Shown here piece after piece: positions 5,909 through 40,003 of a stretch of DNA of 52,323 nucleotides (positions are counted from its first letter, which is position 1; the number at the start of each line of letters is the position of its first letter). The DNA lies in the NCBI GenBank assembly GCA_035550055.1, contig DASZRO010000062.1, positions 1 to 52,323 of the forward strand, given 5' to 3'. A program made the translations under genes and the position numbers. This DNA is from Mycobacteriales bacterium (GTDB lineage Bacteria; Actinomycetota; Actinomycetes; JAFAQI01). The notes under the pieces are model-generated. The model had not been told where the DNA came from. It saw only the letters and a program-made list of their open reading frames with translations, and did no database searches.

Positions 5909-7323
5909 GTCGCCGCGGTTGCCTTCGTCCGGCCGAGACCGGCCTGGTAGAGCACGAAGTAGACGACGGCGGCGAGCACGAACCCGACCTCCGGGGTGAG
6001 GTCGCCGAGGTTCGGGTGGTTGCGTACGACGTAGCCCATGAACTCGGTCTGGTTCGAGAACAGCAGGATCGAGACGGCGCCGCCGACCGCCATGGCGATC
6101 GGTCCTGCCCAGCTCGTGTGCCGGTGGTCGTAGAGCAGATCCGCGTGGTTGCCGCGCCGGAGCACCTGGTCCACGAACACCACGGCCAGCCACGGGGCGA
6201 TCCAGTACGCGATGACCAGAAGGAAGTTGTTGTACTTCTCGGCCGCGTCGTGGAGGCCGGTCCACGCGACGATGAAGCCGGCGACGCCGAACACGCCGGC
6301 GATCATCGCGCGCCGCAGCTTCAACGGGATCTTGAAGCCGAGGGTGTTGAACGAGATCGAGCCCGAGTAGATGTTGATCGCGTTCGCCGCGACCGCCCCC
6401 AGCGCGATCGCGATCAGGGTGAAGTCGGCGATGCCGGTCGGCAGCGGGTTGGTGAACTGGCTCGTCGGCGAGTCTCCCTTCGCGCCGATCGTCGCCGAGG
6501 CGGCGCCGATGATCTCCAGCGCGATGCAGGACAGCGCCACGCCGAACCCGGCCCACCAGCCGGTCGCCGCCTTGGAGGTCTTCGGGTCGAAGTAGCGGGT
6601 GTAGTCGCTCGCGTAGGGGTTCCACCCGCACGCGTATCCGAACGTGGCCGCGGTCGCCAGCGTGAAGCCGCCGTACGTGCCGTAGCCGCCGGCACCCTGA
6701 CCGCCGTAGTGACCCTTGGAGAACGTGTAGATCCCGGCGAGGACGAAGGCGACCAGCAGGATCGGAAACGCGAGCTTCTCGAACAGATGCACCAGGTTGT
6801 GCCCGTACAGCGCGATCGCGATCTGCGCTGCGACGATGATCAGCAGGCAAAGCACCTTGTTCCAGTGCAACAACGTGTTGAGCGCCAGCGCACCCGACAC
6901 GCTGTTGACCGCGAACCAGCCGACGCCCGCGATCAGCGCGTTGATACCCGCCGGCAGGATGTTGCCCCAGTAGCCGAACGAGATCCGGGACAGCACCATC
7001 TGCGGTACGCCGTACTGCGGGCCCTGGGCGGACAGCCCGGCGTGGGTGATCGACCCCAGGACGGTGCCGAGGACGATCGCGCCGACGGACTGGCTGAAGC
7101 TCAGGCCGAAGAACTCGATGCAGATCACGCCGACGAAGACGGTCGCGAACTCGAAGTTCGGCGACATCCAGGTCCAGAACAGGTTGAGCGGCTTGCCGTG
7201 CCGCTCGGCGAGCGGAATGAACTCCGCGCCGCCAGGCTCGATGACGGCGACCTTCTCGCCGTAGTCGCCTTCCCGGATCTCGGTGTTGGCCGCGAGCCCG
7301 GCCTCGTCTTGAACCGTCGTCAT
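5905..7323 (-). CDS. NCS1 family nucleobase:cation symporter, likely cytosine/purine permease
   Basis: 472 residues from ATG 7323, with GGGAGGG ten bases upstream. About 12 membrane segments follow an N-terminal cytoplasmic tail. NCS1 features include NLFWTWMSPNFEF near 50-60, GYWGNILPAGINALIAGVGW in the substrate region and GYACGWNPYASDYTRYF in the middle. It should import a nucleobase driven by a cation gradient. Its stop overlaps the deaminase start and upp follows, so cytosine is the most sensible substrate. Allantoin or hydantoin NCS1 relatives are possible alternatives but do not fit the operon. Confidence 0.92.
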   Translation of the reverse strand: MTTVQDEAGLAANTEIREGDYGEKVAVIEPGGAEFIPLAERHGKPLNLFWTWMSPNFEFATVFVGVICIEFFGLSFSQSVGAIVLGTVLGSITHAGLSAQGPQYGVPQMVLSRISFGYWGNILPAGINALIAGVGWFAVNSVSGALALNTLLHWNKVLCLLIIVAAQIAIALYGHNLVHLFEKLAFPILLVAFVLAGIYTFSKGHYGGQGAGGYGTYGGFTLATAATFGYACGWNPYASDYTRYFDPKTSKAATGWWAGFGVALSCIALEIIGAASATIGAKGDSPTSQFTNPLPTGIADFTLIAIALGAVAANAINIYSGSISFNTLGFKIPLKLRRAMIAGVFGVAGFIVAWTGLHDAAEKYNNFLLVIAYWIAPWLAVVFVDQVLRRGNHADLLYDHRHTSWAGPIAMAVGGAVSILLFSNQTEFMGYVVRNHPNLGDLTPEVGFVLAAVVYFVLYQAGLGRTKATAAT

Positions 7324-7439: not shown

Positions 7440-7518
7440 TGGGGCAGGACAGCTGCCGGTAATCCGGCGGCCATCTGGTTTTCAGGTGCGACTCAGGTGG
7501 GCAGAGCAAGGTCAGGCC

Positions 7519-18423: not shown

Positions 18424-18488
18424 GTCGCCGAGCCCTACCTTTTTGGTCTTTCAGACCCCCTTGAAAGACCAAAAGCGTTGGGCTCGAC
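18424..18488 (-). terminator. Two-tier hairpin terminator after osmC (copy 1 of a repeated element)
   Basis: A perfect 13-bp inner stem, TTTTGGTCTTTCA (18441-18453) with TGAAAGACCAAAA (18462-18474), encloses an 8-base loop. An outer pair, GTCGCCGAGCCC (18424-18435) and GGGCTCGAC (18480-18488), extends the symmetry. Read on the minus strand it starts one base after the osmC stop and is followed by an A/G-rich stretch. The same flank and stem recur after pgl at the window end. Confidence 0.85.
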
Positions 18489-36787: not shown

Positions 36788-38199
36788 CAGCCGACGGCAC
36801 CTTCCATCTGCAGCTCGATCAGCCGGTTGAGCTCGAGGGCGTACTCCATCGGGAGCTCGCGCGCGATCGGCTCGACGAACCCGCGCACGATCATCGCCAT
36901 CGCCTCGTCCTCGGCGATGCCGCGGCTCATCAGGTAGAACAGCTGGTCCGCGCTGACCTTGCTGACCGTCGCCTCATGACCCATCTGCACGTCGTCCTCA
37001 CGGACGTCGACGTACGGGTAGGTGTCGGAACGGCTGATGTTGTCGATGAGCAGCGCGTCGCACTTCACGGTCGACTTCGAGTGATGCGAGTTCTTGTTGA
37101 TCTGCACCAGACCGCGGTACGACGTACGTCCGCCACCTTGTGCAACCGACTTGCTCACGATGTTGCTCGACGTGTTCGGCGCCGCGTGGACCATCTTCGC
37201 GCCCGAGTCCGTGTGCTGACCGTCCGCGGCGAAGGCCAGCGACAGCGTCTCGCCCTTTGCGTGCTCGCCCACCAGCCAGACCGCCGGGTACTTCATGGTG
37301 ACCTTCGAGCCGATGTTCGCGTCAGTCCATTCCATGACTGCGCCCTCGTGAGCGATGGCTCGCTTGGTCACGAGGTTGTACACGTTGTTGGACCAGTTCT
37401 GGATGGTCGTGTAGCGAACGCGGGCGTCCTTCTTCACGATGATCTCGACGACAGCCGAGTGCAGTGAGTCCGAGGAGTAGATGGGGGCCGTACACCCTTC
37501 GGTGTAGTGCACGTAGGAGCCCTCGTCCGCGATGATCAGAGTCCGCTCGAACTGGCCCATGTTCTCCGTGTTGATCCGGAAGTAGGCCTGCAGCGGAATG
37601 TCGACCTTCACGCCCTTCGGCACGTGCACGAACGATCCACCTGACCACACCGCGGTGTTCAGCGCCGAGAACTTGTTGTCACCGGCAGGGATCGCTGATG
37701 CGAAGTACTCGCGGAACAGCTCCTCGTGCTCGCGCAGCCCGGTGTCGGTGTCGACGAAGATGACACCCTGCTTCTCGAGATCCTCGCGGATCTGGTGGTA
37801 CACGACCTCGCTCTCGTACTGAGCAGCCACGCCCGCGATGAGGCGCTGCTTCTCCGCCTCGGGGATGCCGAGCTTGTCGTAGGTGTTCTTGATGTCCGCC
37901 GGCAGGTCTTCCCACGACGCCGCTTGCTTCTCAGTGGAGCGGACGAAGTACTTGATGTTGTCGAAGTCGATGCCGGAAAGGTCGGCACCCCAACCCGGCA
38001 TGGGCTTCTTCTCGAACAGCCGAAGGCCTTTGAGCCGCATGTCCAGCATCCACTCGGGCTCGTTCTTCAACGCCGAGATGTTGCGCACGACGGCCTCGGA
38101 CAGCCCGCGCTGCGCCACTGCCCCCGCCTCGTCGGAGTCGGCCCAGCCGAACTTGTAGCGGCCGAGACCTTCGAGCTGGCCCTGGGCGACGTCGGTCAT
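36787..38199 (-). CDS. sufB: Fe-S cluster assembly scaffold SufB
   Basis: 470 residues from ATG 38199, with GGAG nine bases upstream and an ATGA overlap with sufR. Key regions are [37 protein letters not shown], and [17 protein letters not shown] with the C-terminal cysteine thought to receive sulfur or coordinate the cluster. It is the main scaffold for de novo [4Fe-4S] assembly with SufC and SufD, and should serve aconitase and other clients encoded nearby. No intein was seen; in mycobacteria this gene often has one. Confidence 0.97.
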
Positions 38200-38903
38200 G
38201 AAGCTGGCTCCTCGCGAGTTGCTGGGACTGCCGGACGCATGGTCACGTCCGTAAGCGGAATGTGGGTCGTGCAGACGCCGTCGCCGCGCGCGATGGTCGC
38301 GAGCCGCTGCACGTGACGTCCGACCAGCCGGCCGATCGCCTCGGTCTCCACCTCGCACATGACCGGGAACTCCTCGGCCACGTGCTGCACCGGGCAGTGG
38401 TGCTGGCAGACCTGTACGCCGATCGTAGTGTCGTGGACGGTGGACGCGTAGCCGTCCTCGGCCAGCGCCGCGGCAAGGGCCTCTGCGCGCGCGTCCAGCG
38501 GCAGCGAAGCGATCCGGTCGGCGTACCGGGCCTCCCAGGCCGCCATCCGGCGGCGGGCGAAGTCCTCGACGGCCTGTTCGCCGGCGGACTCGCGCAGGTA
38601 GCGCAGCGCGTCGACCGCGACGTCGTCGTAGGCCGTCGGGCCGGCCGCATGCCCCGCCTCGCTCAGCGAGAACCGTCGGGCCGGCCGGCCGCGACCGCGC
38701 GGGCCGTGGCGGCGTTCCTCGGTCGCGACGATCAGGCCGTCGTCGAGCGCGGCGTCGAGGTGGCGGCGGATCGCCGGCGTGGTGAGGCCGAGCCGCTGGG
38801 CGAGCTCGGTCGCGGTCGACGGGCCGTGGTCGAGCAGCGAGCGGACCACGCGGTCGCGGGTCCGCTGGTCCGCCGCATCGAGGCGTGGCACCACGGTTTT
38901 CAC
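38196..38903 (-). CDS. sufR: SufR-like iron-sulfur-sensing transcriptional regulator
   Basis: 235 residues from GTG 38903. The N-terminal winged helix is clear ([20 protein letters not shown], then [18 protein letters not shown]). The C-terminal part has cysteines in [19 protein letters not shown] and GDGVCTTH, spaced as candidate cluster ligands. SufR represses suf operons while its cluster is intact. As first gene of the operon it should be autoregulated. A possible -10 TAATTA lies about 15 bases upstream (minus strand) and a short ACGA/TCGT inverted repeat at 38905-38919 overlaps it. No strong ribosome site precedes the start. Confidence 0.94.
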
Positions 38904-38963
38904 AACGACATTCTTTCGTAATTACCGGCGAGAGGCAAACCGCCCACCCCTCACCCGCCGCCG

Positions 38964-39058
38964 CCTTTCCCGAAGTAGCACACAACGCCGCCGCCGCCGC
39001 CCGATCCGTACCCCGCTGTCCGAATCGGTGGCCCGGTTGTGTGCTACTTCGGGGAAGG
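38964..39058. repeat. 95-bp inverted-repeat element between sufR and the ABC transporter
   Basis: The left arm (38964-38986) and right arm (39036-39058) are 23 bases long and match with a single mismatch that can be a G-U pair in RNA; the shared core is CCGAAGTAGCACACAAC. The 49-base loop begins with a GCC triplet run and contains a nested CCGAT (39001-39005) and ATCGG (39024-39028). The right arm ends 15 bp before the ABC ATPase ATG. No ORF lies inside. It is far too long and symmetric for chance; it could be a mobile miniature element, a regulatory hairpin or a double operator. Confidence 0.9.
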
Positions 39059-39073
39059 CCGGAGACTGGAGGT

Positions 39074-40003
39074 ATGGCGGCGGTCGTGGTCTCCCACCTC
39101 GCCAAGCGCTACTCCCCCACCGCGGGGGTGGTCGACGTGTCGTTCGAGGCGCCGGCGGGCGCGGTCACGGCGCTGCTCGGCCGGAACGGCGCCGGCAAGA
39201 CCACCAGCGTGGAGGTGTGCTGCGGCCTTCGCCGCGCCGACTCCGGTGAGGTCCGCGTCCTCGGCCTCGATCCGCGACGCGATCACGCGCAGCTGGCGTC
39301 CCGGGTGGGCGTCATGCCGCAGACCGGTGGATCCGGCGCCTGCGGCATCTATCCATCGGTGCGGGTCGGCGAGGTCGTCCGCCACTACGCCGCGATGTAC
39401 GCCGATCCGCTGCCGGTGCCGGCGCTGCTCGAACGGCTGGGCCTCGACCCGGTCGAACGCACGCCCTGGCGGCGGCTGTCCGGCGGCGAGCAGCAGCGGG
39501 TCTCCCTCGCACTGGCCCTCGTCGGCCGACCGGCGGTGGCCTTCCTCGACGAGCCGACTGCTGGGCTCGACCTTCACGCCCGCCACACCACGTGGGCGCT
39601 GGTCCGCGAGCTTCGCGATGCCGGCGTCGCCGTCGTACTCACCACCCACGCCCTCGACGAGGCCGAGGCGCTGGCCGACACGGTCACGATCCTCGACCAC
39701 GGCCGCGTCGTCGCGACGGGCGCTCCCGCCGAGCTCGCCAAGGCCAAAACGCCTCCGGAACTGACGTTCGAGGCGCCGCCTGACCTCGACACGGCGGCGC
39801 TGTCGAAGGCGCTGCCGGACGGCGCCTCGGCTCACGAAGAACGCCCCGGCCGCTACGTGATCGGCCCGCGGGTCGACCCGGAGGTGGTCGCCGCCGCCAC
39901 CGCGTGGTGCGCGAGCGTCGGGGTCATGGTGGACAACCTCTCCACGTCGAGCCGGTCGCTGGAAGACGTCTTCCTGGAGGTCACCGCGGCGGTCCCGCAG
40001 TGA
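39074..40003 (+). CDS. ABC transporter ATP-binding protein
   Basis: 309 residues from ATG 39074, with GGAGG just upstream; the earlier open frame runs through the inverted repeat and is not used. Walker [10 protein letters not shown], signature LSGGEQQR, Walker [13 protein letters not shown] and the switch His in [11 protein letters not shown] are intact. The type is the multidrug or lipid-export family (ABC-2 systems), whose C-terminal extension [11 protein letters not shown] is present. The stop overlaps the permease start, so the pair forms one transporter. In many actinomycetes this pair sits between sufR and the heme A/heme O synthase genes. Confidence 0.93.

Follow-up and report, generated by a model that had tools for sequence, protein, structure and literature searches.

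A long palindrome between sufR and an ABC transporter gene

The window, by which we mean the whole analysed stretch of 52,323 nucleotides, carries a gene for a sufR-like regulator and, divergent to it, a gene for an ABC transporter ATPase, with a long palindromic element between them (Table 1). The left arm of this element (CCTTTCCCGAAGTAGCACACAAC, 38964-38986) pairs with the right arm (GTTGTGTGCTACTTCGGGGAAGG, 39036-39058) with a single T.G position, which is compatible with G-U pairing, and an additional G-C pair at 38963/39059 closes the stem and brings the arms to 24 nt. The sequence-only reading had described two 23-base arms with one such mismatch around a 49-base loop; this geometry was borne out, the stem being even one pair longer, and the distances also agreed, with 14 nt between the end of the element and the ATG at 39074 and 59 nt between the element and the start of sufR (38903). 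The folding energy of the hairpin as RNA is -66.1 kcal/mol for the plus strand and -69.0 kcal/mol for the minus strand (z of -6.5 and -5.5), and no shuffled sequence folded as well. Among the palindromes of 36-130 nt in the window it has the longest arms (24 nt, compared with 17 nt for the runner-up).

Table 1. Coordinates and properties of the features discussed in the text.
Feature	Position	Strand	Remarks
Whole palindromic element as foldable here	38963..39059		24-nt stem arms, 49-nt loop
Left family arm, CGAAGTAGCACACAAC	38971..38986	+	Profile of 44 copies; GAAGTAGCACAC essentially invariant
Right family arm, same 16-mer as the left arm, CGAAGTAGCACACAAC	39036..39051	-	Profile of 44 copies
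Conserved inner motif TGTCCGAATCGG (family consensus TGTCCGGTTC), gives the orientation of the element	39017..39028	+	Family profile
Weaker direct copy of the inner motif, CGCCCGATCC, about 19 bp left of it	38998..39007	+	Family profile
Interior, fixed length, nearly random sequence	38987..39035		Pairwise interior identities
sufR-like regulator (wHTH, cysteine cluster)	38196..38903	-	Upstream strip AATTACGnAAnAATG kept in relatives, untouched by the element
ABC transporter ATPase, divergent to sufR	39074..40003	+	AGACT box 6 nt before the start codon, kept in relatives
Second palindromic element, other family (GCCGAGCCCTACCTTTTTGGTCTTTC..GAAAGACCAAAAGCGTTGGGCTCGAC; arms GAGCCCAACG / TTTTGGTCTTTC)	18427..18488		Arm resembles one flanking the nuclease gene G000:C95:3-830

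One other species of the genus was compared with the genome of the window (G000), namely the MAG "Frankiaceae bacterium LS_ISSM_2_bin.122" (G001), hereafter the congener. Its sufR/ABC site is also occupied, with identical arm cores and an interior that has diverged and is longer. Because the congener is an independent assembly, the suspicion that the hairpin might be an assembly artefact can be set aside. No element is present between sufR and the ABC gene in three related genera (G002, G003 and G005), which keep the gene pair, the AATTACGnAAnAATG strip and AGACT-type boxes. The question whether the arms would be absent from relatives thus received a divided answer: they are present and intact in the congener and absent from the three other genera. 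The sufR/ABC copy would have arrived in the ancestor of the genus and stayed there. In both species, 19 nt separate TTGTGT in the right arm from the AGACT box that follows it ahead of the ABC start (39037-39067 in the window). Judged from the sequence, this box is a possible leaderless promoter, to which the element may supply a -35-like sequence; any effect of the element on the expression of the ABC gene or sufR would possibly be a secondary one. In another genus, the corresponding intergenic region upstream of a sufR-like gene (L105, G008:C357) contains tandem CCCAGCGGTGTGCCACCGGTGGG-like repeats, and a similar repeat, CCAGCGGTGTGCCACTGCTGGG, is common to both flanks of a DUF559 gene in L211.

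The palindrome belongs to a dispersed family

Family copies were gathered by sequence search and from genome stretches. When the 141-bp region was searched against its own genome, 51 matches were found, and the arm pattern returned 44 copies in which both 12-nt cores are perfect; a profile model gives about 50 copies in the 3.5-Mb genome, and the congener has at least 16. With this outcome of an arm-core search that had been proposed from the sequence, the story of a one-off sufR operator hairpin gives way to membership in a genome-wide family, and the annotation that suits the sufR/ABC copy best is that of a REPIN-like palindromic element from the family with ACACAA arms and associated DUF559/AbiEi genes.

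Each copy consists of two near-invariant inverted arms of 13-16 bp (CGAAGTAGCACACAAC) and, between them, an interior whose length is fixed and whose sequence is almost random. In the profile of 44 copies, C followed by GAAGTAGCACAC is essentially invariant on both sides, with AAC strongly preferred next, and the interior is poorly conserved except for the TGTCCGGTTC motif, which stands at a fixed place and has a weaker direct copy about 19 bp off. Measured from GAAG to CTTC, the copies are 79, 80 or 81 nt long, with a second class at 89-90 nt, and related elements in another genus have 92-93 nt including the outer C and G. This step of about 10 bases, seen in a few length classes, suggests that both arms must face the same side of the double helix. 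The median pairwise identity of the interiors is 62%, compared with 56% for shuffled sequence. The arms are perfect or one base off, and at two mismatches the count is close to that of a reversed-pattern control. Such a picture of perfect arms and a free interior is not what an old mobile element would leave behind by neutral decay. A few copies at loci with unrelated flanks, including two on C30 and one on C18 as well as a pair on C106, have interiors that are 85-96% identical, and therefore the unit was copied precisely and, for those pairs, recently.

Across 62 copies there was no covariation beyond arm positions 14-15, which means that the interior has no conserved RNA fold; the nested inverted repeat that had been noted in the loop is found in the sufR/ABC copy but is not conserved across the family. 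Searches of Rfam returned only matches to mir-885 and mir-253 below the gathering score, and thus no structured RNA or riboswitch. An extension of the stem into the flanks or the interior was considered and rejected: the pairing of the flanks is compositional (C-rich on the left, G-rich on the right) and not specific to each copy. An exact-arm scan of GTDB genomes found only the congener and one REP-like locus in Acidobacteria, and IMG/VR and phage records contained no copies of the element. A lone family arm was seen at L156:1534 onward (G000:C68:3333), near an unrelated perfect palindrome of 23 bp (GAGCCCAACGATATTGGTCACTC) and close to a contig end.

Copies cluster at the 3′ ends of genes

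Gene neighbours were assigned with a home-made gene caller based on codon usage. Convergent genes surround 22 of the 43 placed copies, in comparison with a background of 69 of 402 adjacent gene pairs (p=2e-6). In the two species together, the element comes within 20 nt of 59 of the 82 gene 3′ ends next to it but of just 4 of the 38 adjoining gene 5′ ends, and in 26 cases the arm's GAAGTAG itself supplies the stop codon, TAG. Because the family is found mostly within 20 nt of gene 3′ ends and rarely near 5′ ends, the sufR/ABC copy, which lies between divergent genes, is unusual. The placement at 3′ ends is compatible, as far as the sequence goes, with a role as intrinsic terminator; operator and terminator roles of the palindromes are possible but secondary.

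The element occupies the same place in the two species at three loci, and some syntenic sites of the congener have no element. These sites did not provide a clean pair of empty and occupied sites: they hold other insertions, two of which are DUF559 genes. At L115 of the congener (6391-6441 and 7450-7500), a DUF559-type gene takes the place that an element has in G000; one end of the gene carries a different palindrome of its own (TTTGTTCTGCAGGCTGTCC), and a partial copy of this palindrome lies close to the opposite end. No target-site duplication was found, in that no direct-repeat signal stood out after many offsets were tested (best z about 3).

Palindromes flank AbiEi-DUF559 nuclease genes

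At G000:C30 and G001:C178, two elements of the ACACAA-arm family bracket a single gene, and the only gene found between the family's ends is a DUF559 nuclease. Its product combines an AbiEi-type N-terminal part with a DUF559/MTES_1575 (Vsr-like) nuclease domain; the DUF559 match is above the Pfam cut-off and that to MTES_1575 just below it. The AbiEi assignment is backed by all 12 scanned members, which match PADLOC AbiEi models, and 6 of these 12 also match Pfam AbiEi_1. In the alignment of the nuclease part, D225, G239 and R255 are invariant and E236 is near-invariant, as in a Vsr-like nuclease, and weak PDB profile matches include 3r3p, a mobile intron endonuclease. A profile search found about 100 such nuclease genes in 12 genomes of the family, and the gene family is present in 90 of 108 sampled actinomycete genomes. 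Further paralogues of the nuclease in these genomes likewise have palindromes on their flanks, with arms that are different for each.

The association is not confined to one gene. Both flanks carry a palindrome with arms of at least 13 nt in 23 of 70 nuclease genes and in 1 of 195 control genes; a stretch of at least 14 nt is common to both flanks in 39 of the 70 nuclease genes and in 1 of the 195 controls (p=3e-26), the controls having been drawn from G000 and the congener only and thus being narrower than the nuclease set. At these thresholds, the remaining 31 of the 70 nuclease genes have no shared flank repeat of 14 nt. In other families of the class, 12 of 21 sampled loci share at least 14 nt between their flanks. 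At L224, a 68-mer recurs unchanged in both flanks as a direct repeat. Among publicly annotated genes, AL755_RS00945 of Arthrobacter sp. ERGS1:01 (NZ_CP012477; our locus L296) is an example, with the same palindrome on both sides: the copies at 1199-1252 and 2241-2309 share GTTGAGGGCCC..GATAATCCG, and the right one occurs at 7 places in that replicon. In a second Arthrobacter, one flanking palindrome was located 6 times on one replicon and 5 times on another. Other dispersed palindrome families turned up when 0.46 Mb of the congener was examined; one of them, a 46-nt family (GCGATTGCCGCCTGA..), is represented by seven copies that do not differ in length. Palindromes of this 46-nt family are seen in L244, L246 and the G001 stretches L114, L125, L127, L131, L136, L141 and L145, and also beside DUF559-type genes.

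The arms vary with the nuclease

In other genera, the arms of related elements differ from those of the window element, and the change affects both sides alike: the variants are CGTTTCAGCACACAAC in G005, CGAAGCTGAACACAAC in G003 and CGCCAGCACACAA in G011. Both flanks of the nuclease gene at G005:C77 carry the dispersed arm of that genome, CGTTTCAGCACACAAC, and the gene at G003:C6 has a G003-type arm, CTGAACACAAC, on its right side. Over 59 genes, arm similarity is correlated with protein similarity (Mantel r=0.18, with 0 of 2000 permutations as high), and the six proteins with ACACAA arms, from four genomes, form one well supported clade. The exception is G011, a draft assembly with 8% contamination, in which 4 related elements are present and no nuclease of the ACACAA clade was found. 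Each dispersed palindrome family is thus tied to one AbiEi-Vsr-like nuclease lineage, with arms that co-vary with it.

A proposed nuclease-maintained palindrome and its alternatives

We conclude that the hairpin is probably a REPIN-like, non-autonomous palindromic unit of about 81 bp and about 50 copies, maintained not by a RAYT but by a Vsr-like nuclease. Of the three guesses made from the sequence, the miniature mobile element came nearest: the roughly 50 dispersed copies and the near-identical interiors at unrelated loci speak for it, and its mobilisation is the part that we infer. In the mechanism we propose, the AbiEi part would recognise and bind the arms, a role that we assign to it because inverted repeats are the known targets of AbiEi-family antitoxins (PMC7319586). 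The nuclease part would nick or cut at the arms, and repair or replication would copy the element elsewhere, so that it homes into new intergenic sites, taking the gene along where flanking copies are present. Insertions next to stop codons may predominate because they are tolerated there and hence are what survives. We lean towards the view that the AbiEi-DUF559 proteins are the mobilising enzymes themselves, the AbiEi domain recognising its own palindrome and the Vsr-like domain nicking it, which would sustain a non-autonomous palindrome population. Against the REPIN-like reading stand the search for movement, which gave neither a clean pair of empty and occupied sites nor a target-site duplication, the 31 nuclease genes whose flanks share no repeat of 14 nt, and the elements of G011, where no nuclease of the ACACAA clade was found; perfect arms with diverging interiors could, moreover, mean host selection and not mobility.

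One alternative, which we regard as unlikely, is that the solo elements are scars. The gene would then move or home as an element-gene-element unit, and recombination between its direct-repeat flanks would delete the gene and leave a solo element, much as solo LTRs are left. The congener indeed has element-gene-element at G001:C178 where G000:C113 has one element, and the direct order of the 68-mer in the L224 flanks suits such a deletion. However, this is just one pair of that kind, and about 50 solo elements to one or two genes of the clade would call for very frequent loss. In addition, the near-identical solo copies on C18 and C30 look as if the element itself had been copied.

It seems improbable to us that the palindrome is a host-adapted DNA site, selected by the host, whose arms bind a DNA-bridging or a terminator/insulator protein at gene 3′ ends and which nuclease genes use as a safe insertion point. 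Such a site would fit the intact arms of nearly all copies and their near-random interiors, the fixed spacing with its steps of about 10 bp, the strong bias towards 3′ ends and convergent genes, and the shared position at three loci in two species. It would not fit the symmetrical differences between the arms of different genera, which follow the nuclease tree, the separate palindrome of each nuclease paralogue, or the syntenic sites of the congener that have no element, and a host regulator with 50 sites would be expected to change slowly.

The AbiEi-type protein might also regulate itself through the palindrome as its operator, in the manner of AbiEi and Rv2827c, with the dispersed copies making up a regulon. 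The arms do follow the protein tree, and the promoters of AbiEi-family antitoxin genes contain inverted repeats to which the antitoxins bind (PMC7319586); nevertheless, palindromes occur on either side of the gene, and most of the dispersed copies are downstream of genes and not in promoters, which makes this explanation quite improbable. Finally, a cis-regulatory hairpin or paired operator specific to the sufR/ABC region is highly improbable: although the element sits between two divergent starts, is kept in two species and places the TTGTGT of its arm at what may be a promoter distance of 19 nt from the conserved AGACT box, Rfam gave only sub-threshold chance matches, and the iron-sulfur/heme operator suggested by the sequence-only reading is unsupported because the same arms recur at about 50 unrelated loci, mostly gene 3′ ends, and the element is missing from G002, G003 and G005, which keep the gene arrangement.

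If the palindromes are maintained by AbiEi-Vsr-like nucleases, as we propose, then a very common, multi-copy and functionally unexplained actinobacterial family, the DUF559/AbiEi fusions, gains a concrete and testable role, many scattered actinobacterial palindromes gain a candidate source, and the two together would offer matched enzyme/target pairs for sequence-specific nicking. This pairing of nuclease and repeat in actinobacteria is apparently undescribed so far. Its novelty is provisional because our literature search covered open-access papers; within that scope we found nothing relevant on palindromes in Actinobacteria, or on any link of palindromes or flanking repeats to DUF559, AbiEi or Vsr.

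Comparison with known systems

The element shares with MITEs and Correia-type repeats its short length, terminal inverted repeats, intergenic position and want of coding capacity. It differs from them in that no target-site duplication was found and the interiors are not homologous at the level of MITEs, and we know of no transposase with the ends of the element. Integron attC sites and CALINs were considered and rejected, since the RYYYAAC..GTTRRRY core does not fit CACACAAC/GTTGTGTG and the copies are dispersed singly, with no cassette arrays.

The partner gene resembles Vsr-like (EDxHD-type) homing endonucleases and free-standing homing genes in its Vsr-like fold, to which the 3r3p match is weak, and in being a multi-copy intergenic gene. 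Unlike these, it is flanked by complete palindromes with no split target site, it has an AbiEi domain, and its palindromes are also dispersed without the gene. With the AbiEi antitoxins of type IV toxin-antitoxin systems (PMC7319586) it has in common the N-terminal AbiEi-type region, in a family that binds inverted repeats; here, however, this region is fused to a nuclease, the gene has palindromes on either side, and palindromes are dispersed as well.

The arm contains GTAG (GAAGTAGC), as do the GTAG-tagged REPs (PMC3733652), but the related arms in other genera (GTTTCAGC, GAAGCTGA, CCAGC) lack GTAG, and there is no RAYT. An element in an Acidobacteria MAG (L077:1098-1187; GAAGTAGCACA..TGTGCTACTTC, also GAAGTAGCACAGACTTTAGTC..TGTGCTACTTC) is like a classical GTAG REPIN, with a hairpin in each half.

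The closest resemblance in anatomy is to REPINs, which are mobilised by RAYT (Y1/HUH) transposases (PMC3116915, PMC8049555). Like these, the element has two invariant inverted ends at a conserved distance around a less conserved spacer, is extragenic and dispersed in tens of copies per genome, and has an end sequence that also flanks an enzyme gene, with enzyme-specific arm types; here the gene is that of a DUF559/AbiEi nuclease, whose part in mobilising the ends is a proposed one. Searches for RAYT (Y1_Tnp, PF01797) gave no match in the 12 genomes, with positive controls detected in 5 well-known genomes, and because the defining RAYT is absent we describe the element as REPIN-like in anatomy and not as a member of the REPIN family. 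Unpaired arms are nearly absent here, whereas REP singlets are common in REPIN systems, and no hairpin is evident inside each arm. The partner, above all, is different, being a Vsr-like PD-(D/E)XK nuclease with an AbiEi DNA-binding domain. If our interpretation is correct, the RAYT/REPIN system would have been invented a second time with an unrelated enzyme, and it would follow that a Vsr-like, restriction-type nuclease, in place of an HUH transposase, can drive populations of REPIN-like repeats.
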